Below are positions 40,192 to 53,116 of a DNA stretch of 64,000 bases, piece after piece. Made by a program: the position numbers and the translations under genes. Origin of the DNA: Hyphomicrobium sp. ghe19 (GTDB lineage: Bacteria > Pseudomonadota > Alphaproteobacteria > Rhizobiales > Hyphomicrobiaceae); the NCBI RefSeq assembly GCF_902712875.1, contig NZ_LR743509.1, positions 2,990,001-3,054,000 on the forward strand. Reading direction: 5' to 3'. Position 1 is the stretch's first letter; every line of letters starts with the position of its first letter. The notes below the pieces were generated by a model that was given only the letters and a program-made list of their open reading frames with translations, had not been told where the DNA came from and did no database searches.

Positions 40192-40609
<418 letters not shown>

Positions 40610-40629
<20 letters not shown>

Positions 40630-41233
40630 GCTTGTAGACCGTATGTTGAAATTTTCGGCCCTCCGCCAGAAGCCCCGTCACCCTGTCCGTCATTTCCCTC
40701 TTGTACTTTTCATCCTTGATCGGAGGGAGGTTGAGCTGGACGTTCATGATTGCGCCCTCCAGACCGGCGAGCGCTTGCTGGCCAGCTACTCCAAGTTCGC
40801 CAATGGCATCAGCGTTGGCTTTCCCCACGATCTTATTTGCAAAGAAAACGACGTCGCGGCATTCCCTCGCAATACTCAAGGGCGACTGAACAGCTTCTTT
40901 GTAGGCTCTCTCAATTTCGGCAGCGCGAATCTGTTTTTCGTCGTCCGTGCCCTTGGGCATTGCAAAAGCCGCCATCACTCCGTTGAAAGCTTCGGCGTCA
41001 AGATCAACGCGCCTTAGGAGACTTGCCGAAAGCGCTTCAGTTTTTCCCAAGGCATCGGTGAGCGTATTTGCATACTGCTCACATTCTTTTCGCCCGATGC
41101 TCAGCCGACAAACCATAGCCACGAGACTTGCCGCCAACGCACCTGACAAGGCTGCGACGCGTCCTCCTGCAGGCGCTGTCGCGTCCGAGGCAAGGACCTT
41201 GCAGAACTCTTCGGCCGACTGCTTCACCAACAT
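40610..41233 (-). CDS. Second methenyl-THF cyclohydrolase / formimino-THF cyclodeaminase-like protein
   Basis: 207 residues, exactly as long as the fch gene at 43988. The two share long blocks (AALSGAL, VAMVCRLSIGRK, QSPLSIAREC, GLEGAIMNV). The conserved glycine-rich loop read as PAPGGGSVAALSG in the other copy is TAPAGGRVAALSG here: one glycine is lost and arginine replaces serine, so substrate binding may be altered. The ATG at 41233 has GGAAGGA upstream. A TetR-type operator lies 41 bp before the start, so this copy can be transcribed on its own. It may be a specialised or a decaying paralogue. Confidence 0.8.
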
Positions 41234-41273
41234 TCGGTATCCTTCCGTCAACCCGTCCCTCTTAGCCTTTTTA

Positions 41274-41291
41274 ATTAATTAAACAATTAAT
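41274..41291. promoter_or_regulatory. Candidate TetR-type operator before the second fch
   Basis: Inverted repeat ATTAATT, AAAC, AATTAAT with perfect seven-base arms. It has the same arm core and four-base spacer as the sites at 49523 and 49992. It lies 41 bp upstream of the second fch start. Confidence 0.65.
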
Positions 41292-41321
41292 GCCAGACTG
41301 CTTAGGGGTCCATTGCCTTTT

Positions 41322-41490
41322 GGCAATCTCCCCGGTCATCTTCTTGGCGTCGCCGAGCACCATCACCGTGTTGTCTCGATAGAATACCGAGGTGTCGACG
41401 CCGGCATATCCCGACGCAAGAGAGCGCTTGTTGAAGAACACAGTGACGGCCTTTCCAGACATGAAGCACCGGCATGCCGTAGATCGGCAC
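41322..41490 (-). pseudogene. Frameshifted C-terminal remnant of pntB (NAD(P) transhydrogenase beta)
   Basis: Two adjacent frames together give the end of Pnt[14 protein letters not shown] in one, then a shift near 41453 to [20 protein letters not shown] and [17 protein letters not shown]. This matches the family's last 55 residues (PI-GMPVL-VWK, KRS, GYAGV, LFGDAK). Everything before is gone. No pntA or other pntB lies nearby, so the fragment was either brought with the duplicated segment or left after a deletion. Confidence 0.85.
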
Positions 41491-41678
41491 AATGATGAAT
41501 TGGAAGCATTCTTCAGTAGGCTGCATCTTCAGCCGACCCGAGCTTCACCGGTTTTTGTTCGCCGCTACGGCCCCCAGCGCCGTTCATGCCCTTGCACATC
41601 ACGCGTCGAGACCTGTTACGTCAGCAGATTGCTACAGGCTGCTCGACGCGATTTCCAACACCCGTATAAGCGTTCGTT

Positions 41679-42617
41679 TCATGCTTCTTCTGCGGCCCGC
41701 AAGCCGAGCATATGGCAAATGCCGTAGACGAGGTCCGCGCGATTGAGCGTGAAGAAGTGAAATTCCGTGACACCGCGATCGACGAGGCCCAACACCTGTT
41801 CCGCAGCAAACGCCGCTGCCGCAAGACGATGGGTTTCTGGATCGTTTTCCAATCCCTCGAAACGGCGCGCCAACCAGCTCGGGATGCTAACCCCGCAGCG
41901 CGCAGCAACCGCCGCGACCTGCTTGAAATTATGGATGGGAAGAATGCCTGGAATGATCGGCGCCGCCACTCCATGTGTTCTTGCCTGCTCTTCAAATCGG
42001 AAGAACAGCTTATTGTCGAAAAAGAACTGCGTAATGATCCGATCTGCCCCCGCATCGACTTTGTTCTTCAGAGCGGCGATATCAGCCGCAACAGTGGCCG
42101 ACGCCGGGTGCTTCTCCGGGTAACCGGCAACCGCGATCTCGAAGTTTGCAATGCCTTTCAGGTCGGCAACCATATCGCAGGTGTACTCGTAGTCGTTAGG
42201 ACCGGGCTCATAAGGCTCGCCTGCGGGTGAGTCTCCCTGAAGAGCCACCAGCTGCCGAACACCTAGGCTCCAGTACGCGGCAGCGGTTGCAGCAATCTCC
42301 TCGCGGGTGTTCCCAACGCGTGTGAGATGAACCGCTGGCGCAAGAGTCGTTTCACGAAGAATTCGCTCAACGGTTAGACGAGTGCGTTCTCTCGTCGTCC
42401 CTCCGGTACCAGAAGTTACCGCAAGGCTCGTAGGCCTCAACGGACCAAGCCTGTCAATCGAGCGCCACAGCGATTTTTCCATCGCTGCGGTCCTCGGCGG
42501 AAAAAATTCGAAGGAAACATCGATGTCTCCCTGTCCGAGAAACCGGCTCGCCCGTCGTGTTGGCGGCACGATGCGTGGCACTTCCGGCGGCAAGTCTGAC
42601 TTTCGTATCATGCTCAC
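41679..42617 (-). CDS. metF: Methylenetetrahydrofolate reductase
   Basis: A 312-residue FAD-dependent TIM-barrel enzyme that reduces methylene-THF to methyl-THF. Landmarks are VSFEFFPPRT near residue 35, the SLAVTSGTGGTTRERT region near 62, LVALQGDSPAG near 128 and IITQFFFDNKLFFRF near 195. The GTG at 42617 is used, with AGAGAG about five bases upstream; an ATG two codons later is possible. It is the last intact gene of the operon, 16 bp after folC. Confidence 0.93.
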   Translation of the reverse strand: MSMIRKSDLPPEVPRIVPPTRRASRFLGQGDIDVSFEFFPPRTAAMEKSLWRSIDRLGPLRPTSLAVTSGTGGTTRERTRLTVERILRETTLAPAVHLTRVGNTREEIAATAAAYWSLGVRQLVALQGDSPAGEPYEPGPNDYEYTCDMVADLKGIANFEIAVAGYPEKHPASATVAADIAALKNKVDAGADRIITQFFFDNKLFFRFEEQARTHGVAAPIIPGILPIHNFKQVAAVAARCGVSIPSWLARRFEGLENDPETHRLAAAAFAAEQVLGLVDRGVTEFHFFTLNRADLVYGICHMLGLRAAEEA

Positions 42618-42633
42618 GGTGCTCTCTACTTTC

Positions 42634-44022
42634 CTACCGCACGCCTTGCGTCAGATCCGATGCGTGCTCGAACCTGAGCACATGGCCTGCGAGGTAGAGT
42701 GAACCGAATATCAGCACCCGACCCGGCTCAGACATGGCAGCTTTGGAAAGCAACAAAGCGTGGTGAAGGCTCCGTGTCGGAACAACAGGAAAACCCTCTC
42801 TCTCAGCAATCTCTGCAAGATCGCTAGCTGAGAAAGCATTTTCTTCTCCAGGGATCGGGACCGTATAAACACGCGAGACGCGCCCCTGAAAATGCCGAAG
42901 GACCGAGGCCGCATCCTTGGTTTCCATCATGCCCCAGATCAAATGCACTTCTCTGGGATCTCGGGCCTTCATGGCATCTAGATGCGCTGCAACGACTGCA
43001 CCACCTGCTTCATTGTGACCTCCGTCGAGCAATAGCTCCGTGTTCGGCCCTAGATACGTCTGATACGGCTCTTTATTCAGGCGTTGAAGTCGCCCCGGCC
43101 ACGATGCCGTAGAAAGCCCCTCTTCGAGCGAATCGAGCGAGAGCTTTTGATTGAAAAGAAGGCTCGCCGTAGCAATAGCCGTTCCAGCATTGTCGATCTG
43201 GTGCGCGCCTTCTAGACGGGGCAACGGGAGATTGATCATGCGCGTGTGCGACTGGAATATGAGCCGACCGTCGCGCTCGAAGACGTCGAAGTCGCGGCCA
43301 AATACATGCAATTGGGCGCCAACTTCCGCGGCCTTTGCTTCGATGACTGCTAACGCCTCCGGTTCCTGCCGACCAACGATGCAGGGTACTCCAGGCTTGA
43401 GGATGCCTGCCTTTTCGGTGGCGATAGAAGCCAAGGTATCCCCAAGGAACGAGACATGATCAATGGAAATGGGAGTGATCACCGTGGCCCTGGGTGATTG
43501 GACGACATTGGTCGCATCAAGCCGCCCACCCAACCCTGTTTCGAGAAGCAGAAGGTCGGCGCTCTCCTGGGAGAAGGCGACGAAGGCAGCAGCTGTCGTG
43601 ATCTCAAAATGAGTAATGGGCTGATTGCCATTGACGCTCTCTACGAGAGACAGACATTCAATCAGTCTCTCTTCCGAAATCGGCGCGTTCCCGTCCTCGT
43701 GCGCGAGACCAATGCGTTCATGGAAAGTTACGAGGTGTGGCGACGTGTACGTGTGCACACGCCGTCTTTGTGCTTCGGCAATTGCTCTCACAAACGCGAC
43801 TAGCGAGCCCTTCCCGTTCGTTCCAGCGACATGCACGACCGGGGGAAGACGGCGCTCGGGATTTCCGAGCGCCGCGAGCAACCTTGTCATTCGATCGAGC
43901 GATAGATCGATGGTCTTCGGGTGCAACCCGCTCAACCTCTCAAGCAGAATCTTGCTGCTAGGAAGCCGAGCGGGCGCACTAGCCGGCTTAAAGTTTTTCG
44001 CTGACGAAGTTGTAGACATCAT
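42634..44022 (-). CDS. folC: Folylpolyglutamate synthase / dihydrofolate synthase
   Basis: A 462-residue Mur-ligase-fold enzyme that adds glutamates to folates. The P-loop is VVHVAGTNGKGSLVAF near residue 65; LLETGLGGRLDATNV near 158 and the conserved C-terminal ELLLDGGHNEAGG near 350 are complete. Folates with longer glutamate tails are better substrates for C1 enzymes. Its first 35 bp overlap the fch gene. The intact length contrasts with the relic at 40192. Confidence 0.95.
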   Translation of the reverse strand: MMSTTSSAKNFKPASAPARLPSSKILLERLSGLHPKTIDLSLDRMTRLLAALGNPERRLPPVVHVAGTNGKGSLVAFVRAIAEAQRRRVHTYTSPHLVTFHERIGLAHEDGNAPISEERLIECLSLVESVNGNQPITHFEITTAAAFVAFSQESADLLLLETGLGGRLDATNVVQSPRATVITPISIDHVSFLGDTLASIATEKAGILKPGVPCIVGRQEPEALAVIEAKAAEVGAQLHVFGRDFDVFERDGRLIFQSHTRMINLPLPRLEGAHQIDNAGTAIATASLLFNQKLSLDSLEEGLSTASWPGRLQRLNKEPYQTYLGPNTELLLDGGHNEAGGAVVAAHLDAMKARDPREVHLIWGMMETKDAASVLRHFQGRVSRVYTVPIPGEENAFSASDLAEIAEREGFPVVPTRSLHHALLLSKAAMSEPGRVLIFGSLYLAGHVLRFEHASDLTQGVR

Positions 44023-44611
44023 CCTTAGCCTCGCGACCGCACTTGAGGAGTTGAGAAACCTCGACCGAAGTTGCGGAGTTGAATTGCTGATCCTTGATGG
44101 ACGGCAGGTTGATCTTGACGTTCATGATTGCGCCTTCGAGACCCGCGTAGGCCTGTTGCGCCGCAACGCCGAGATCGCTTAGGGCATTGGGATTGGTTTT
44201 TCCCAAAAGGCTTTTGGAGAGATTGAGTACGCTGACGCACTCGCGCGCAATGGAAAGAGGCGACTGGACGGCGTCCTTGTATCCAGTCTGGATCGCCTCG
44301 GCGCGCTTCTGCTTCTCGGCATCGGTCGCCTTCGGCAACTTGAATGCCGCCATGACTGCATTGAAGGCTTCCGTGTCGAGATCGACGCGGCGCATCAGGC
44401 CGGCTGCAAGGCCATCGGCCTCAAGTAATCCGGTTTTGATTTCTTGCGCGTGAGCCTCAAGATCTTTCCTGCCGATACTCAGGCGGCACACCATTGCTAC
44501 AAGCTCAGCGCCAAGTGCGCCTGACAGAGCAGCCACACTGCCGCCGCCAGGTGCTGGAGCATCGGACCCGAGTACATCGCCGAATTCCTCGAGCGTCATC
44601 TTAACGAGCAT
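43988..44611 (-). CDS. fch: Methenyl-THF cyclohydrolase / formimino-THF cyclodeaminase-like
   Basis: A 207-residue protein of the cyclodeaminase family. The loop APAPGGGSVAALSG near residue 20 is intact, followed by VAMVCRLSIGRK and LEGAIMNVKINL. As I recall, methylotrophs such as Methylobacterium extorquens use a protein of this family and size (Fch) as methenyl-THF cyclohydrolase. With ftcD nearby it could instead remove ammonia from 5-formimino-THF; the sequence does not decide between them. AGGAGA before the ATG at 44611 supports the start. Confidence 0.88.
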   Translation of the reverse strand: MLVKMTLEEFGDVLGSDAPAPGGGSVAALSGALGAELVAMVCRLSIGRKDLEAHAQEIKTGLLEADGLAAGLMRRVDLDTEAFNAVMAAFKLPKATDAEKQKRAEAIQTGYKDAVQSPLSIARECVSVLNLSKSLLGKTNPNALSDLGVAAQQAYAGLEGAIMNVKINLPSIKDQQFNSATSVEVSQLLKCGREAKDDVYNFVSEKL

Positions 44612-44720
44612 TTCTTTTCTCCTGGTTTGGTCGGCGCCCCTTAGAAGCACCGACCTCTGTTTGACAGTTGTTCGCAACTGTTCAGTTCCGCAGCGCAACT
44701 GCGGAAACGGCTTCGCGACC

Positions 44721-46403
44721 TCAGAACAAGCCCTCGATCTCGCCTTTTTCGTTGAGCCGAATGGTTTCAGCCGCAGGCACGCGCGGAAGGCCCGGCATGG
44801 TCATTATCTCTCCGCAGATCCCAACCACGAACCCAGCGCCTGCCGAGAGACGGACTTCTCGCAGGGGTAGGGTGAACCCTGTCGGCGCCCCGCGCTTGTT
44901 TGGATCGGTCGTGAAGGAATACTGCGTCTTAGCCATGCAGACGGGGAGATGGCCGTAGCCGTCCTGCTCCCATTGTTTCAGTTGATCGCGGATCTTCTGG
45001 TCAGCCACCACGCCCTCTGCGCGATAGATCTCACGCGCAATGGTTTCGATCTTTTCGAAGAGACCCAAATCCTCCGAATAGAGCGGCTTGAAAGCAGCCG
45101 ATCCAGAAGCGCAGAGCTCGACCACCTTTCGAGCGAGGTCTTGAGTGCCTTCAGACCCATCCTGCCAATGTTTGCAGACGATGGCCTCTGAGCCCTGAGC
45201 GGCGACATATCGCTTGAGAGCTTCGATCTCGGCAGGCGTGTCCTTGGAAAAATGATTGATTGCGACGACGGCAGGGACACCGAACTTTCGCACGTTCTCC
45301 AAATGACGTCCGAGATTTACGCAACCCTTCTCGAGTGCAGCGACATTCTCGGTGCCGAGGTCTTCTTTTTTGACCCCGCCATTCATCTTGAGTGCGCGTA
45401 CGGTTGCAACAATGACAACTGCAGATGGGCTCAGGCCTGCTTTGCGGCATTTGATGTCGAAGAACTTCTCCGCGCCGAGGTCGGCGCCGAAGCCTGCTTC
45501 CGTCACCACGTAATCTGCAAGTTTCAAAGCCGTGCGAGTCGCCATCACGGAGTTGCAGCCGTGCGCGATGTTAGCGAAAGGTCCGCCATGCACAAACGCC
45601 GGATTGTTCTCGAGCGTCTGCACGAGGTTCGGCATCAGCGCGTCCCTCAGCAGAACCGTCATTGCGCCATCTGCCTTAAGGTCACGGCAATAGACTGGCG
45701 AACGGTCACGCCGGTAGGCAACGATCATGTCGCCGAGTCGCTTTTGGAGATCCTTACGATCTTTGGCGAGGCACAAGATTGCCATGACTTCGGACGCCAC
45801 GGTGATGTCGAATCCGGCAAGCGCCGGATATCCGTTTGCAGGGCCTCCGAGTGAGGTCACAATCTCGCGAAGTGCGCGGTCGTTCATGTCGAGCACACGC
45901 CGCCAAGCAACACGGCGCGTGTCAATATCCAACTCATTGCCCCAATAGATGTGATTGTCGATCAACGCGCTGAGCAGATTGTGCGCGCTAGTGATGGCAT
46001 GGAAATCACCAGTGAAATGGAGGTTGAGGTCTTCCATGGGCACGACCTGGGCATAGCCGCCACCAGCAGCGCCGCCCTTCATGCCGAAGCACGGACCGAG
46101 CGAAGGCTCGCGCAAACAAATCATAGCATTTTGGCCGATGCGGTTCAGACCGTCTCCGAGCCCGACAGTCGTCGTGGTCTTGCCCTCGCCGGCTGGCGTT
46201 GGGGAAATTGCCGTCACCAGCACGAGGTGTCCATCAGGACGTGACTGAACCTCATCGATGAATTCGAAACCGACTTTCGCCTTATGCGGACCGAAACGCA
46301 GCAACTGCGATTCAGGAATCCCGGCCTTCTCTGCAACCTTCTCAATCGGTTGCAATTTTGCGGCCCGCGCCACTTCGATGTCGCTGCCTACTACCTTGAC
46401 CAT
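44721..46403 (-). CDS. fhs: Formate-tetrahydrofolate ligase
   Basis: A 560-residue synthetase (also called ftfL in methylotrophs) that makes 10-formyl-THF from formate, ATP and THF. The P-loop [16 protein letters not shown] lies at residues 68-82, with [20 protein letters not shown] near 112 and the potassium- and substrate-binding parts in the later half. Length is as usual for the family. With fch it links formate to the methenyl-, methylene- and methyl-THF pools. GAGGA nine bases before the ATG supports the start. Confidence 0.97.
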
Positions 46404-46634
46404 CTCGTGTATTCCTCAAGTTGCGTTAGTTCTCGGCAGCAGGGCGCTAGAGGGGTTTCCAAAATCGGAAGCCGCTTTCGCCATGCGCAGTCGTTTTGAA
46501 AAAGAAGGGGAGATGCGACCTCGATCACCGGGCAAGAAATGGGAAGAGGCCCTGCGGAACCGGAGCCGCATCTCCGTCAGCACATCACCCGAAAGATGAT
46601 GTAGCCACAGCCAATGTTACGAACGGATTCGCGA

Positions 46635-48242
46635 TCAGCTCCCCCAGAAGATCTGGTACCCGATCAATATCGCGAGCGCATTGCCGGCAAGCGCGAGATA
46701 AGGAAGGATGCCTGCTCGGGTAGGAGTGAGTTCGGTCTCGCCTGGCGGGATCAGATCCGACAGCATATAGTCGGGAAACTTGCCGCGGTCGGTTACATAG
46801 TGCCGGTAAAGGAAGACCGGCACGGCGGCAAACAGGACCGTGAAGCCCAGAGGAAGCACTCCATCCCCCCACACGTTTGCACCAGCGCCGATCAAGAAGG
46901 CGTTCACAAACGATAGGCATCCCACAACGACCAACCAGAACATCGAAGCGCGGTACGGCCGTTTGGAACGCGGATTGTCAATGCGGTGTATCCATGCCGC
47001 ACTCATATTGAGTGTGTGGAACATCAAGTAGTTGACGGCAGAAACAGCAAGCACGAACAGATAGTCAGACATGAGAAGAAGAAAGGCATTGAAAAAGAGG
47101 TCTACCCACATTGCGCGAGTGGGGACACCGTGCTCGTTGAGGTGGTCAAGGTATTTCGGAAACCAGCCATCATGTGCTCCCTGATAAAGGGTTCTGGCAG
47201 AGTCCGCCATGGCCGTCATCACCCCCAGCAGAAGGCTGAAGATCAGCATCACAACCAGCAGGTTGGTGAAGAATGGACCAGCTCCAACTAGGCCAGCAAA
47301 CGCAGCGCCTACACCTTCTCCACTTTGGATTCCCGGTGACAGCATGCCTTCGGTTCCCAAGCCACCCTGGAATACGAAGGATACGAGGGCGTATACGACC
47401 AGGCAGATCACACCAGTCCAGATGACCGCCTTTGGCCCGCCAGTTTCTGGATCGCGCATCTCGCTCATAAAACAGACGGAACTTTCGGCAGCGTATGCCG
47501 ACCAGGCGGCTATAAACAAACCGCCGAAGAACAGCTTCCACCCTTCAAAGTCCCAGGCTCCATTTAATGGTACGAACGGCGTGAAGTGCTCCATCGTGAC
47601 TTTGCCGCCAAACAACGGCAGGAAGCAAACGAGCACCAACGGGAAGAGCCCACCGAGAGTCAGCGCGATCTGAACGCGTGCGGTTCTCGTGATCCCCGCA
47701 TGTTGAATAGCCCAGATCGTCAACATGATGAGGGTGCCAAGAACGAATTGCATGTTGAGGCGGAGTGTCAGACCCGGCTTGATCGCGTTCAGATCGACGA
47801 GTGTGAAACTCCAAGTGTTCAAGACGTGATCCGGCGGGACGAAGACCGAAAGCACGTAGCCGGCCCCCAAACCAGAGCCGATAGCAAGGATCGGGCTGTA
47901 TGCGATCCAGTTGCCCCAGACGGACATCGGCGCAACGACCTTAATGTGCCGGATCCAGGCGGTTGCACCATAGTTCGCGGTTCCACCGGATTTGTTTGGC
48001 AGCATCGCCGCCATTTCGGCATAGACAAACGTGGCTATCAACCCGATCGTAGCAGAGATCGTCCAAACCAGCGGTGACACGGTTCCGGTGACCGCGGAAA
48101 TCCCCCCGAGACTGAACATCACCAGCGCGCACGCGCCTAGTGCAATGAAAACGACTTCCCACCAGCTTACCGCCCGAACCATATTTTCTTTGTGCGATGA
48201 TGACACTATGACGTGTTCAGGATTCGAAACTTTAGAATCCAT
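46635..48242 (-). CDS. APC-superfamily amino acid/amine permease
   Basis: A 535-residue permease with about 12 membrane segments. The first segments (FIALGACALVMFSLGGISAVTG) and the MLPNKSGGTANYGATAW segment (usually rich in Gly, Ala, Pro and Ser) mark the amino acid-polyamine-organocation family. It should import an amino acid or amine into the cytoplasm. Its place between ftcD and fhs suggests that the cargo is the C1 source, for example a formimino or methylated amino acid; the substrate is unproved. GGGAGGA precedes the ATG at 48242. Confidence 0.88.
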   Translation of the reverse strand: MDSKVSNPEHVIVSSSHKENMVRAVSWWEVVFIALGACALVMFSLGGISAVTGTVSPLVWTISATIGLIATFVYAEMAAMLPNKSGGTANYGATAWIRHIKVVAPMSVWGNWIAYSPILAIGSGLGAGYVLSVFVPPDHVLNTWSFTLVDLNAIKPGLTLRLNMQFVLGTLIMLTIWAIQHAGITRTARVQIALTLGGLFPLVLVCFLPLFGGKVTMEHFTPFVPLNGAWDFEGWKLFFGGLFIAAWSAYAAESSVCFMSEMRDPETGGPKAVIWTGVICLVVYALVSFVFQGGLGTEGMLSPGIQSGEGVGAAFAGLVGAGPFFTNLLVVMLIFSLLLGVMTAMADSARTLYQGAHDGWFPKYLDHLNEHGVPTRAMWVDLFFNAFLLLMSDYLFVLAVSAVNYLMFHTLNMSAAWIHRIDNPRSKRPYRASMFWLVVVGCLSFVNAFLIGAGANVWGDGVLPLGFTVLFAAVPVFLYRHYVTDRGKFPDYMLSDLIPPGETELTPTRAGILPYLALAGNALAILIGYQIFWGS

Positions 48243-48293
48243 CTGATTTTCCTCCCATAGTTGCCGGCCCTCCCTAGGCGCCGCGTAACGGAA

Positions 48294-48354
48294 TCAAAGC
48301 CGGCATCCATTTTCTCGGTGGTTGACACCGCTGTCGTGATGGAGCCGGCTTCGA
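48294..48354 (-). other. Long stem-loop between ftcD and the permease gene
   Basis: Arms 48294-48310 and 48339-48354 pair over about 16 bp with one mismatch and one bulge (GCCGGC core), around a 28-nt loop. It lies 52 bp upstream of the permease start. It may protect or cut the message, giving unequal expression of neighbours. An oligo-T run on the plus strand (about 48365) has no plus-strand gene to serve. Confidence 0.5.
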
Positions 48355-48401
48355 TTTCCTGTTATTTTTTTTTGTTGAGATTTTACGTGGGACGTTACGC
48401 T

Positions 48402-49343
48402 CTAGCCTTCGAGCTCGAGCAGATGGTTTTCGAGGATTTGCGTTTTGTAATCCCAGGGCCCGTTAATGGCCTCGAGCTGCAAGTACCATTCCGCAGTCTG
48501 AACGAGGACTTCCGCCGCGATAGTTCCACAAATCTGTCCGGCTAGAACGTTCACGCCGTAGCGTGCAGCTTCAGCCTTCAGAAGATTGTAAATTCTATGC
48601 AGCGGCGTCTGCAGCGGATTGCTGACTTCGATCGAAATGATGGCGACGTCTTTTCCAGTTCGGCGATGCTTATTCGGCAGGCCGATAGTGCCCTGGATGT
48701 TGGTAAAGCCGCCGGTCCTGCCTCTGATATAGCTCGCAAGCTTCTTAGCGATGGCGACATCCGTGGTATCGAGCACGACGTTGAAATAAGCGTCATGCTG
48801 TTCAAGAGCTCCGACGATCGTCGCTCCAGCGGTTGGATGCAGCTTGGCGGGACCGAGATCCGGCGCGCGGCTCGGATCCTTGAGGACTGCGTCTCTCAGC
48901 CCTTCGTAGTTGCCCTTGCGAATGGCCGTCAGCCCTTCGCGATCGGGCCGGCGAGCGTTTTTGCCCGTGAAGAAGACCGGAACCTGGTGCCGCTTGAAGA
49001 TCTCCTTGCCGATCTCCTCAGCAAGCTCCCGGCATTCCTCGATCGTGACGTCCTTTGCCGGATAAATCTCGATGGTATCGACGGCACCGATGCGCGGATG
49101 GTGGCCCGTCTGCTTCTCCATGTCGATCAATTCGTATGCCTTGGCGCAAGACTCCAGAATCGCGTCCTTCATAACTTCAGGACGGCCAAGCAGCTCCACC
49201 GGAAGGCGATCGAAATCAGCATCAGGCTCATAACCGATCAGTTTCAGTCCGGGCCTGTTGCGATACGGAGCAATAATCTGGTCGATGACCTCCTTACGCT
49301 TACCGTCGCTGAAATTCGGATCTGAAAGAATGTACTTCGCCAT
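48402..49343 (-). CDS. ftcD: Glutamate formiminotransferase (stand-alone, FtcD N-terminal type)
   Basis: A 313-residue formiminotransferase without the fused cyclodeaminase domain. The catalytic histidine lies in GHHPRIGAVD, residues 81-89, matching His82 of the mammalian FTCD enzyme. DVTIEECRELAEEIGKEI and GAGATIVGALEQ-like segments fit the two-subdomain fold. It transfers a formimino group from formiminoglutamate (or a similar donor) to THF. No hutH, hutU or hutI for histidine breakdown is in the window, which is unusual. AGGAGGA before the ATG is a strong start. Confidence 0.92.
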   Translation of the reverse strand: MAKYILSDPNFSDGKRKEVIDQIIAPYRNRPGLKLIGYEPDADFDRLPVELLGRPEVMKDAILESCAKAYELIDMEKQTGHHPRIGAVDTIEIYPAKDVTIEECRELAEEIGKEIFKRHQVPVFFTGKNARRPDREGLTAIRKGNYEGLRDAVLKDPSRAPDLGPAKLHPTAGATIVGALEQHDAYFNVVLDTTDVAIAKKLASYIRGRTGGFTNIQGTIGLPNKHRRTGKDVAIISIEVSNPLQTPLHRIYNLLKAEAARYGVNVLAGQICGTIAAEVLVQTAEWYLQLEAINGPWDYKTQILENHLLELEG

Positions 49344-49522
49344 AAAGTCCTCCTGCCCGGATGTAACGATTTGTTACCGGGATATCCCTGTGGTGTTGGG
49401 CACCCTGTGAGGATGCTTGCGTTTGAGAGAGCGGCATCGCCGAACGAACCTCCCGATCGCCAAAACCAAGAAATCGGAGGGTGCGGCTTGCCGTCCCTGA
49501 GTGAGGCTAGTTTCGGCTTTTT

Positions 49523-49542
49523 ATTTAATCAAGCGATTAATT
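49523..49542. promoter_or_regulatory. Candidate TetR-type operator before ftcD
   Basis: Inverted repeat with perfect core TTAATC, AAGC, GATTAA and arms extending to ATTTAATC and GATTAATT. It lies about 180 bp upstream of the ftcD start and has the same four-base spacer as the other two sites. Confidence 0.65.
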
Positions 49543-49991
49543 ATATGCGGTGCATCATAGGAAACGGCGATTCGTGGACGTCGGAATTACTGATGCGATT
49601 TCCAGGCCGCAGCGCACTGAGCGCAACCGCTGCGAGAAGCGACGCAGAATGATGATTTCGATTTCTGACCGCCTTGTGCGCCGGCCAAACGGCCGCGTAG
49701 ACGACGAAGCGCACAGTATCATTGAGAGATTCCGTCAGACGCCAGGAGATGAGTTGCCCGTCGCGGATGGCAACCTAAGATCAGCGGCTCGAGACGGCAT
49801 CGAAGACGAAGGCGTCATCTCAACTGGGCTGCGGCATGAGAGAGTGCGAAGCAGCAATCCCAGAATCCACAGTCAAACTTTTTTTCAGTTGCACGTAGAT
49901 CCTAGCAGTTTGCTACGGCTCACCTTAGGGTTTCGCCACGGGCAAGCCGGCGACTCGCGACAATGAAGTGCTTGACGCTGGTATACTGTGT

Positions 49992-50011
49992 AATTAATCC
50001 ATCAATTGATT
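49992..50011. promoter_or_regulatory. Candidate TetR-type operator before tetR
   Basis: AATTAATC, CATC, AATTGATT, arms of eight with a four-base spacer. It lies 15 bp before the tetR start codon, well placed for autoregulation. Confidence 0.65.
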
Positions 50012-50026
50012 TTATGACGGGGTATC

Positions 50027-50713
50027 ATGGGCCGAAAACGAAAAGAAATTGAACCAAAACTTGGGCGAAGAGCGGCAGTAGTCGCAGGACCCGATGCCGA
50101 TGAACTCGCACGGATCGCTCTCGATTTATTTGCGGAGCGTCATTACTCGACCGTGACGATCAAGGACATCGGCAAAGCTGCTAACGTCAATAGCGCCATG
50201 ATCTACTATCACTACCGGGACAAGCTCGCCTTATTTAACGCAGCGATTGACAGTGCGACGAGCGAGGCGTTCAGACACTTCGACGATAACATTCACAACG
50301 GCAAGCATGAGAACGCGGCTTCAGCGATCAATGCATGGTTCGACGTGCATGTGACCTTGTACAAGCGTCTGCGCAACGTCATCAAGATTAGCATGGACTG
50401 CAGTGGCCCAGAATTCTCGGACGCGAGAAGTACAATCAAAAACTTCTATAGCCATGAAAAGAAGATCCTCGGGGACATCATAAACGACGGCATCGACTCG
50501 GGCATTTTCCGTAAGGTCGATGTGTCGGTTGTGTGCACCATGATCTCCGCGTTCCTGGACGGCATTCTGGCGAGATCACTCATGCTCAAGGATTTCGACA
50601 TGCTTAAGACAGTCGAAGAGTTCAAGCGGACACTCTGGCTTCATCTGGGGTATCGCACAGTGCCCGTCCGAACTTCGTCTCGCTCCAGCTCTACAGATCG
50701 CAAATCGGCCTGA
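50027..50713 (+). CDS. TetR-family transcriptional regulator
   Basis: A 228-residue one-component regulator. The N-terminal helix-turn-helix reads ELARIALDLFAERHYSTVTI then KDIGKAANVNSAMIYYHYRD, residues about 24-67. The remaining part is a helical ligand domain of usual length. It is divergent from ftcD; three similar inverted repeats near its own start, before ftcD and before the second fch are probably its binding sites. The ligand is unknown but is likely linked to the C1 source. Confidence 0.93.
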   Translation: MGRKRKEIEPKLGRRAAVVAGPDADELARIALDLFAERHYSTVTIKDIGKAANVNSAMIYYHYRDKLALFNAAIDSATSEAFRHFDDNIHNGKHENAASAINAWFDVHVTLYKRLRNVIKISMDCSGPEFSDARSTIKNFYSHEKKILGDIINDGIDSGIFRKVDVSVVCTMISAFLDGILARSLMLKDFDMLKTVEEFKRTLWLHLGYRTVPVRTSSRSSSTDRKSA

Positions 50714-50718
50714 CACAC

Positions 50719-51438
50719 ATGCTTCCCGTTCTCATCGTCCAAAACGACCCCCAAGAAGGGGCGGGCTCGCTCGCCACTTTGATGGCCAAACGCGGTCTAT
50801 CTCAGTTCATTGTCCAAGGCTTCAACGCACCGTATGCAGAGTTGACGCCTGAGCGCTTTAGCGCGCTCATCATACTGGGCGGAGCTCAGAGTGCGTATGA
50901 GACCGAGGCCTACCCGTACCTTGAACGCGAAATGGCTCTCGTGACGGCCTTCATGAGTGCCGACAAGCCGATCGCTGGCTTCTGTCTTGGTGCGCAGATT
51001 CTTGCCGCAGCACTGGGAGGAGATGTATGCGCTGGCGCGCAAAAGGAAATCGGCTGGTACGATCTCACATTGCGCGATGAGGCGGCGGACGATCCTCTCC
51101 TAAAGGGACACCCGAAAACGCTTCTTTCGTATCATTTCCATGGCGACGTTATTCGCCATATTCCCAACGGGATCGTTCTCGCTTCATCCGAGATGACGCC
51201 TTGGCAAACATTCCGTCATGGCCAGAAGGCATACGGATTCCAGTATCATGCTGAAGTGAATAGATCACTGCTTGCCGACATGTGCCGCAACAACGAGAGT
51301 TATCTCGCTGCCAACGGCATCGACGCCGACGCACTTATCGTCGCGAGCCAACCGCACCTGGCGGACTTCGAACACCATTGCGCGGGCATACTCGAGCGGT
51401 GGCTTGATCTATTTTCAATTGCCGAAGAAGTCCGTTGA
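50719..51438 (+). CDS. Class I glutamine amidotransferase-like protein
   Basis: A 239-residue free-standing class I amidotransferase domain. The nucleophile C89 lies in GFCLGAQILA, with H177 and E179 (YGFQYHAEV) completing the triad. The ALIILGGAQSAY segment holds the usual glycine-rich strand. No synthetase partner lies beside it. It starts five bases after tetR and is probably cotranscribed. It might hydrolyse a gamma-glutamyl amide, which would suit an operon handling glutamate conjugates, but this is inference. Confidence 0.87.
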   Translation: MLPVLIVQNDPQEGAGSLATLMAKRGLSQFIVQGFNAPYAELTPERFSALIILGGAQSAYETEAYPYLEREMALVTAFMSADKPIAGFCLGAQILAAALGGDVCAGAQKEIGWYDLTLRDEAADDPLLKGHPKTLLSYHFHGDVIRHIPNGIVLASSEMTPWQTFRHGQKAYGFQYHAEVNRSLLADMCRNNESYLAANGIDADALIVASQPHLADFEHHCAGILERWLDLFSIAEEVR

Positions 51439-51740: not shown

Positions 51741-52787
51741 CTATTTCGATGATGTGCCTGCCTCCAGTATCGAGACGATCGAGAAGAGCGTGAAGCACAC
51801 CGCCCCAAGTCCGACCATCACGCGCGAGGGCACGAAGTAGCCGGCATTGGCGTCCGCCGCTTCGAACAGGAACGCCGCGATGAACAGACAGGTCAATGCG
51901 GTCAAAACCGGCAGCAGGGGAATGCGATTGGCCAGCGGAAAGCTTCGGCGCCAGACGAGCGCCAGAAGAAGCGCCTTCGACAGAATGCTATAGCAGATGA
52001 GGCCCAGTCCGATCAGCACGATGCCCGGAGCGAGGCGATAGTCGTTATCGTTGCTGATAAGCACATAGATGCCGAGCAGGATGTTGATCGAGCCCATGAC
52101 AACGACCAGCCAGCTCCACATCATGCGCTCGCCCTCCGTGAACACGTTGCGGATCTGGCGGACGATGGTTGCGACCAGGGCGGTCAGACTGAGGCAGATC
52201 GCAGACAGGCCGAACATCACGTGGCCGGCTACGTAGCCCGGCTGATCGCCTCGCATCAAAAGCCAATACGTCAACACGAAACCGACAATCGCGCAGATCA
52301 CAGGAATAGCTATTAATTGCAAAGCTACGTGTTTCGTATGCGCGCCTTCCGGCGGCCCGTCTTCCGGCTTTCGCCCTGCACTGACGGTGATAAGCGTGAA
52401 AACTGTGGACGCCGTGGCAACCGTGCTTACGCAGATCGCGACCAATCCAACGCCGATGGCGATGTCTCCGGCGACGATGTGGTCCCCCGCATCGCTCGAA
52501 GCTGTTAGGGCGATGCCGTAGGCGATGGCGGCGAGCGCAACGATATATCCGGATGCCGGAAGGGCCACGCGCCAGAACTCGCTGTAGCGATGGATGAGCT
52601 GGCGGATAATCGTTGCCGCCGTGGTGAACAGCGCGTAGCAGATCGCCGTCAGCGCAATATTGACGTGACCCGCAATAAAGTGATTGGCGTCTGTTGCGCC
52701 GTACAGAATGTAAAGACCAAATGCGAGACAAATCGCGCCCATTATCAGGGGAATGGCGCGGAATAGTACGCTGATCGCGAGATTCAT
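51741..52787 (-). CDS. Multi-pass membrane protein with an internally repeated motif
   Basis: A 348-residue protein of about ten membrane segments. The pattern aGHvxxGLxAIC-x-L recurs about five times (AGHVNIALTAICYALFT, AGDIAIGVGLVAICVST, AGHVMFGLSAICLSLTA, PGIVLIGLGLICYSILS, SRVMVGLGAVCFTLFSI), spaced some 65-80 residues, each just after a polar loop. This suggests repeat duplication of a two-helix unit. I do not recognise the family for certain; DUF2776-like is a possibility. The second of two adjacent ATG codons is chosen because AGAGG is then five bases away. Confidence 0.75.
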   Translation of the reverse strand: MNLAISVLFRAIPLIMGAICLAFGLYILYGATDANHFIAGHVNIALTAICYALFTTAATIIRQLIHRYSEFWRVALPASGYIVALAAIAYGIALTASSDAGDHIVAGDIAIGVGLVAICVSTVATASTVFTLITVSAGRKPEDGPPEGAHTKHVALQLIAIPVICAIVGFVLTYWLLMRGDQPGYVAGHVMFGLSAICLSLTALVATIVRQIRNVFTEGERMMWSWLVVVMGSINILLGIYVLISNDNDYRLAPGIVLIGLGLICYSILSKALLLALVWRRSFPLANRIPLLPVLTALTCLFIAAFLFEAADANAGYFVPSRVMVGLGAVCFTLFSIVSILEAGTSSK

Positions 52788-53116
52788 CATGGCCTCTCGG
52801 GGTATCCCCGGCTGAGGGTATTTGCTCCGGGGCGGCCTCAGGTGTGGTGAAAGTGCTCTGCAGGCGTCGAAATAGAACATTTTCCGCATGCCGCAGTTCC
52901 AGAGGTACCTAGCGGGCTAACTCGAATTTCGAATACGTCTTCGACAACGAGACCGTCGCGACCTCGTCAAGCTCTAGGCGTCCGTCGACTTATCCGAGGG
53001 AACTCGCATCGATATCGCGTATAAGACACGCGCATGTCGAAGTGCGTGGGCGTGGGCATGCGCACCGCAGTCACCCGCCGCAGGCTGCTAATAAGCTCGG
53101 CGTTTTGCGATTAATT

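Follow-up and report, generated by a model that had tools for sequence, protein, structure and literature searches.

The window analyzed here is a 64,000-nucleotide stretch of Hyphomicrobium sp. ghe19 (contig NZ_LR743509.1, positions 2,990,001 to 3,054,000 of the forward strand), from a Hyphomicrobium close to H. facile. It contains a cluster of one-carbon (C1) genes on the minus strand in the order ftcD, APC permease, fhs, fch, folC, metF and, after a gap, fch2, with tetR, a regulator gene whose product is 99% identical to a TetR of H. facile DSM 1565, and a glutamine-amidotransferase-like gene divergent from the ftcD unit. Palindromic sites of one form precede tetR, ftcD and fch2 and are predicted to be operators of the TetR protein. 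The sites and the genes concerned are given below (THF, tetrahydrofolate; TMAO, trimethylamine N-oxide).

50027..50713, plus strand: tetR, 228-amino-acid TetR-type regulator (TetR_N at residues 31-73)
49992..50011: palindrome before tetR, AATTAATC-CATC-AATTGATT (16-bp core 49994-50009, TTAATCCATCAATTGA)
49523..49542: palindrome before ftcD, ATTTAATC-AAGC-GATTAATT (16-bp core 49525-49540, TTAATCAAGCGATTAA)
48402..49343, minus strand: ftcD, glutamate formiminotransferase (TIGR02024, 260.5 bits, cutoff 221.25)
46635..48242, minus strand: APC permease of the TMAO-permease model family (NF053774, 783.9 bits, cutoff 690)
44721..46403, minus strand: fhs (ftfL), formate-tetrahydrofolate ligase (NF010030, 925.6 bits, cutoff 652)
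43988..44698, minus strand: fch, FTCD_C-type methenyl-THF cyclohydrolase / cyclodeaminase (PF04961, 215.7 bits)
42634..44022, minus strand: folC-like gene (TIGR01499, 370.4 bits, cutoff 162.65)
41679..42617, minus strand: metF, methylene-THF reductase (TIGR00676, 300.9 bits, cutoff 293.7)
41273..41292: palindrome before fch2, AATTAATT-AAAC-AATTAATG (16-bp core 41275-41290, TTAATTAAACAATTAA)
40610..41251, minus strand: fch2, second FTCD_C-type gene (PF04961, 187.2 bits)

The initial annotation of this DNA had described three matching inverted repeats at 41274, 49523 and 49992. All three are present, although the right arm of the third reads AATTGA and not RATTAA, a deviating base that the RATTRATT half of its proposed scan pattern tolerates. 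Relative to the pattern AATYAATY-N4-RATTRATT, the fch2 and ftcD sites have one mismatch each (tetR site, none). The tetR site stops 15 bp short of the tetR start codon and the ftcD site lies 179 bp upstream of the ftcD start codon, with a TATAAT hexamer, read from the sequence of the ftcD coding strand, overlapping the end of the site. From the end of the core to the fch2 start codon we counted 41 bp on the sequence of the window and 42 bp in H. facile.

A scan of the whole genome (one 4.6-Mb contig) with this 20-bp pattern and at most one mismatch, a check of the kind that the initial annotation had proposed, returned three places, which are the three sites in the cluster. The 16-bp core TTAATYNNNNRATTRA likewise occurs without mismatch at the three sites and nowhere else in the genome. 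At up to one mismatch the core matches 25 times on the forward strand and 26 times on the reverse (13 and 9 in the control), and because it is unspecific at that level we dropped it as a genome-wide criterion. Within the window the 20-bp pattern AATYAATYNNNNRATTRATT matches three times at up to one mismatch and likewise at up to two; the pattern of the initial annotation gives eight strand-matches at up to three mismatches (0.93 expected from shuffles), only one of which, at 2470, lies outside the three sites. When the two intergenic regions were simulated 20,000 times with a Markov model, four copies contained one site at up to one mismatch and none contained two or more.

Conservation of the sites goes with conservation of the regulator. 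A TetR at least 58% identical is found in five of 103 genomes of the family, that of the window included (58-99% in the other four: H. facile, G177, G438 and G303), and an Fch protein at E <=1e-30 is found in the same five and in none of the other family genomes. The site before ftcD is kept in all four other genomes and a site before tetR or fch in some of them, namely before tetR in H. facile (0 mismatches) and G303 (2) and, in operator-like form, before fch in G177 (1) and G438 (2). Over the five genomes (about 20 Mb) the 20-bp pattern at up to one mismatch, with overlapping registers merged, marks ten places (window genome, 3; H. facile, 2; G177, 3; G438, 1; G303, 1). The expected limitation to the cluster in related genomes held for nine of these, and the tenth (G177:C1:40700) lies inside an open reading frame (ORF) outside the cluster. 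Thirteen genomes of the same genus without a TetR match at E <=1e-24 (about 49 Mb) have three such places in three genomes, with no cluster gene in the 3-kb surroundings by eye. The many unrelated matches of which the initial annotation had warned thus did not occur at this stringency. At two mismatches, matches in the five genomes fall in the upstream regions of G303 tetR and G438 fch and at unrelated places.

Alignment of the ftcD-tetR intergenic region, judged by eye for the more distant pairs, singles out the block around the ftcD site. The window and H. facile can be aligned throughout. The window and G303 have in common a 19-bp block before ftcD, ATAATTAATCGCTTGATTA, in intergenic DNA that otherwise aligns poorly, and G177 and G438 have AACTAATCAATCGATTGATT in common, again in otherwise poorly aligning DNA.

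We then turn to more distant TetR relatives. At E <=1e-25 they occur in 22 of the 397 order-level genomes and 4 of the 385 class-level ones (own genome included in both). Forty-five loci with such relatives were fetched and 44 used (L095, a duplicate of L050, was omitted). In 21 of the 44 loci, and in 19 of the 40 whose TetR is at most 44% identical, the 700 bp upstream of tetR contain a match to at least 11 of the 12 core positions. The density of these matches is about 50-fold higher upstream (24 in 30.8 kb) than in flanking DNA 3-10 kb away (8 in 523 kb). When half-site and spacer were permuted, the real motif ranked first of 540 palindromes with its 21 loci (median of the 540, 0 loci), and the other permuted palindromes with more than two loci, among the top 25 listed, are apparently displaced or slightly altered versions of the same AT-rich palindrome. 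A motif-free search that compared 13,312 gapped palindromes near 30 of the 44 TetRs, thinned at 75% identity, placed ATTAA-N8-TTAAT on top (9/30 loci, p 2e-14, uncorrected) together with TTAAT-N6-ATTAA (7/30 loci, p 3.5e-12, uncorrected), both of them parts of the same operator-like palindrome. Its recovery around 30 relatives without prior knowledge of the motif argues for the TetR regulon that the initial annotation had predicted. Of three class-level loci outside the order (3.6-kb loci), two have a core of at least 11/12, in one case about 1.3 kb past the gene, while the third reaches only 10.

From these comparisons of sequence, the TetR protein very probably governs its own gene, the ftcD operon and the fch2 unit through the three predicted sites. 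As an autoregulated repressor, the TetR encoded at 50027 would bind as a dimer to a 20-22 bp palindrome, (T)AATYAATY-N4-RATTRATT(A), in three promoters: that of tetR itself, that of a divergent ftcD-permease-fhs-fch-folC-metF operon and that of a separate fch2 unit. A small molecule linked to the substrate of the permease or to the breakdown of that substrate would bind the C-terminal domain, whereupon the repressor would leave the DNA and the C1 genes would be switched on.

Several observations weigh against this reading. With two mismatches allowed, the 20-bp pattern marks 10 places in the window genome, and 7 fall outside the cluster (3 with the reversed control). Directly before tetR, G177 and G438 have a weak site or none, and G303 has no fch site at 2 mismatches. 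Within 700 bp upstream, 23 of the 44 loci lack a core of at least 11/12; widening the range to 4 kb recovers one in 7 of them and leaves 16 without, including L069, a paralogous locus of the window genome itself. A consensus scan of both stretches around the sites found no sigma-70-like promoter and let no promoter pair through, so that repression by blocking RNA polymerase is putative only. Site arms and regulator can also be compared. Both arms read TCAAT in the ftcD site of G438 and in the fch site of G177, where other sites read TTAAT; TCAATCAATCGATTGA, at up to one mismatch in the five genomes, occurs only in G177 and G438 and only in the cluster. The helix-turn-helix reads SIRDIG..NSSM in the TetRs of these two genomes and TIKDIG..NSAM in the other three, and the arm change may go with the helix-turn-helix change. 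This pairing is suggestive only, because it is a single split (3 vs 2 genomes), the G177 ftcD site has TCAAT in one arm only, and the window and H. facile tetR sites also have one such arm each.

Other explanations of the palindromes can be set against the same data. They might be bound by another regulator, with the local TetR a mere neighbour, and the window genome does encode two paralogous TetRs, one at C1:1605087 (39% identity) and one at C1:3687932 (34%). Cross-binding by the first is plausible since a 2-mismatch site (C1:1604837) precedes it; none was found at the second. G177, G438 and G303, however, have one TetR match each, the close TetR (E <=1e-24), and keep sites nonetheless, and the arm difference goes with the local helix-turn-helix, if on one split only. 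We regard binding by another regulator as improbable, and that the repeats are chance AT-rich sequence without function as scarcely credible. Chance can point to the further genome matches of the 16-bp core at one mismatch and of the 20-bp pattern at two, and to the 3 of 13 genomes without the TetR that carry one 1-mismatch match. It has to contend with the restriction to the cluster at high stringency, the conservation with TetR and the enrichment beside TetR relatives, which bear out the initial judgement that chance copies at these three places are unlikely.

The TetR might instead activate the C1 operon, or both activate and repress according to site position. A distance of 179 bp between the ftcD site and the start codon fits several promoter positions, and control of methylated-amine genes in Ruegeria uses an activator, TmaR (PMC13390433). 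The tetR site 15 bp before its start codon and the TATAAT at the end of the ftcD site would, however, be more typical of repression, and we consider an activating role, alone or beside repression, unlikely.

The regulator itself has the features of its family. Its N-terminal helix-turn-helix matches PF00440 (42.6 bits, cutoff 24), and its AlphaFold model (confidence score pLDDT 89) has nine helices in a two-domain all-alpha fold. The model has 353 matches in the PDB at E <=0.001; the 50 listed are mostly TetR-type regulators by name, assorted proteins at about 13-22% identity. Thirteen NCBIfam models match the protein, all under cutoff, among them two BetI models (29.1 and 25.1 bits, cutoffs 201.3 and 118). 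Neither the structural nor the sequence matches point to a ligand. A structure alignment took in the window TetR and 23 of 45 other TetRs.

TetR, RutR and AcrR are autoregulated TetR-family repressors with a divergent target operon. The window TetR resembles them in its TetR_N helix-turn-helix, its all-helical fold and the family trait of palindromes, here putative operators, in its own promoter region and that of the divergent operon; it differs in that all 13 matched NCBIfam models score below cutoff. A TMAO permease of Methylocella silvestris BL2 was reportedly characterized by Zhu et al. in 2014. In comparison with that system, the window permease passes NF053774, its function being predicted from the model score, whereas the ten scanned cluster and neighbour proteins include no TMAO demethylase or amine monooxygenase and the dmmA-like gene of the window genome lies distant, about 306 kb from the cluster. 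BetI, a choline-sensing regulator of alphaproteobacteria, is like the window TetR in family and in a tie to nitrogen compound catabolism, and the BetI2 arrangement is divergent; the BetI1 box, given as ATTGACG*CGTCAAT in PMC12442346, differs from the TTAAT-N6-ATTAA palindrome of the window. In trimethylamine catabolism of Ruegeria pomeroyi, PMC13390433 likens TmaR to the AraC family and calls TmoR a member of the GntR family. These control methylated-amine pathways in an alphaproteobacterium, as the window TetR might, whereas the window regulator is of the TetR type.

The remaining features of the locus are as follows.

50719..51438, plus strand: class-I glutamine amidotransferase-like gene downstream of tetR, also adjoining tetR in H. 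facile, G177 and G438
41319..41602, minus strand: pntB remnants (NAD(P) transhydrogenase beta), where H. facile has pntAB
40267..40590, minus strand: decayed folC remnant downstream of fch2 (tblastn 43% over folC residues 385-451, E 2.5e-13)

A site before fch2 is present as first annotated, in an upstream context more complex than assumed. The gap before fch2 holds the pntB remnants in the window and, in H. facile (G433), intact pntAB genes (L121:5350-8305) with a short further ORF. There fch2 is preceded by an 11-of-12 core site, ATAATTGTTCGATTAA (L121:8858), at near-equal distance to the gene, and a 2-mismatch match lies before pntA (C5:607226). The likely start codon of fch2, read from the sequence, is ATG 41233. 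The gene has an 88% identical copy in H. facile and is 76% identical to the single Fch found in G438. Both fch (205.7 bits) and fch2 (171.4 bits) score under the cutoff of the FchA equivalog NF045657 (275), and both are FTCD_C by Pfam. The folC remnant has a further weak match (E 0.05) to folC residues 26-39; an ORF at 40192-40629 spans this decayed copy, and in it a long simple repeat reads SLSLSL. Downstream of the tetR unit lies a DUF2776 gene (51741-52889). A search for related loci returned one locus, that of H. facile, and a plasmid search returned four records, each matching the fhs part alone.

Together FtcD, Fch and Fhs could convert a formimino or formyl group to formate via THF. Histidine ammonia-lyase (PF00221) is found in none of the five TetR genomes and in 5 of 14 control genomes; histidine by the usual route is therefore an unlikely source, and histidine breakdown an unlikely purpose of ftcD. 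The three enzymes without this lyase point to another substrate. A role in 5-formyl-THF disposal is described for COG3643 formiminotransferases in PMC3223725. All five genomes have a 5-formyl-THF cycloligase (PF01812) above cutoff, which weakens the notion of FtcD as the only disposal route or as a replacement for the cycloligase; such disposal by FtcD is possible but, because the cycloligase is present in all five, not needed. Near the C1 cluster of G177 (L052:14560-19901) lie a second APC permease gene, a dmmA-like gene and a GCV_T-domain gene, and the latter two hint at methylated amines. No dmmA-like match was found in G303.

Genes beside the TetR relatives suggest a wider setting. Of 43 loci, 30 include a type III glutamine synthetase-like gene within the stretch retrieved, and a core of at least 11/12 lies within 400 bp upstream of 15 of 32 synthetase-like genes and 3 of 11 APC permease genes (matches starting after query residue 60 were uncounted, which drops a split permease gene in L065). 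Two family searches took in chosen neighbour proteins, ten each; among those scanned, 6/6 synthetase-like proteins were above the TIGR03105 cutoff and 2/2 permeases above the NF053774 cutoff. The loci of the two paralogous TetRs of the window genome (L061, around C1:1605087, and L069, around C1:3687932) have type III glutamine synthetase-like, creatininase-like and transporter genes; L061 includes a creatininase-family gene and an NMT1-type binding-protein gene, similar genes elsewhere being judged by eye. Because relatives adjoin synthetase, permease and creatininase-like genes, the window TetR seems to represent the C1 offshoot of a group associated chiefly with small nitrogen compounds.

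We tentatively propose, as a joint reading that is possible and has somewhat less than even chances, that these proteins form an undescribed TetR subfamily sharing a single operator code, TAATYAATY-N4-RATTRATTA, which many members retain at protein identities as low as about 30%. For the most part, the members would regulate how small nitrogen compounds are taken up and gamma-glutamylated by way of type III glutamine synthetases, permeases and creatininase-like hydrolases. In Hyphomicrobium and a related genus, one branch may have been co-opted for a formiminotransferase pathway independent of histidine, which would import a compound and burn its one-carbon unit via THF to formate.

Palindromic operators bound by TetR proteins are a familiar kind of system; among the matches listed from open-licence literature, by title and start of abstract, we recognized no description of the predicted regulon or of its operator. 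The regulon offers a putative regulator-operator pair, open to direct testing, for a C1 gene set of methylotrophs that is poorly understood, and the palindrome provides a simple DNA tag for finding more genes of the same TetR subfamily.

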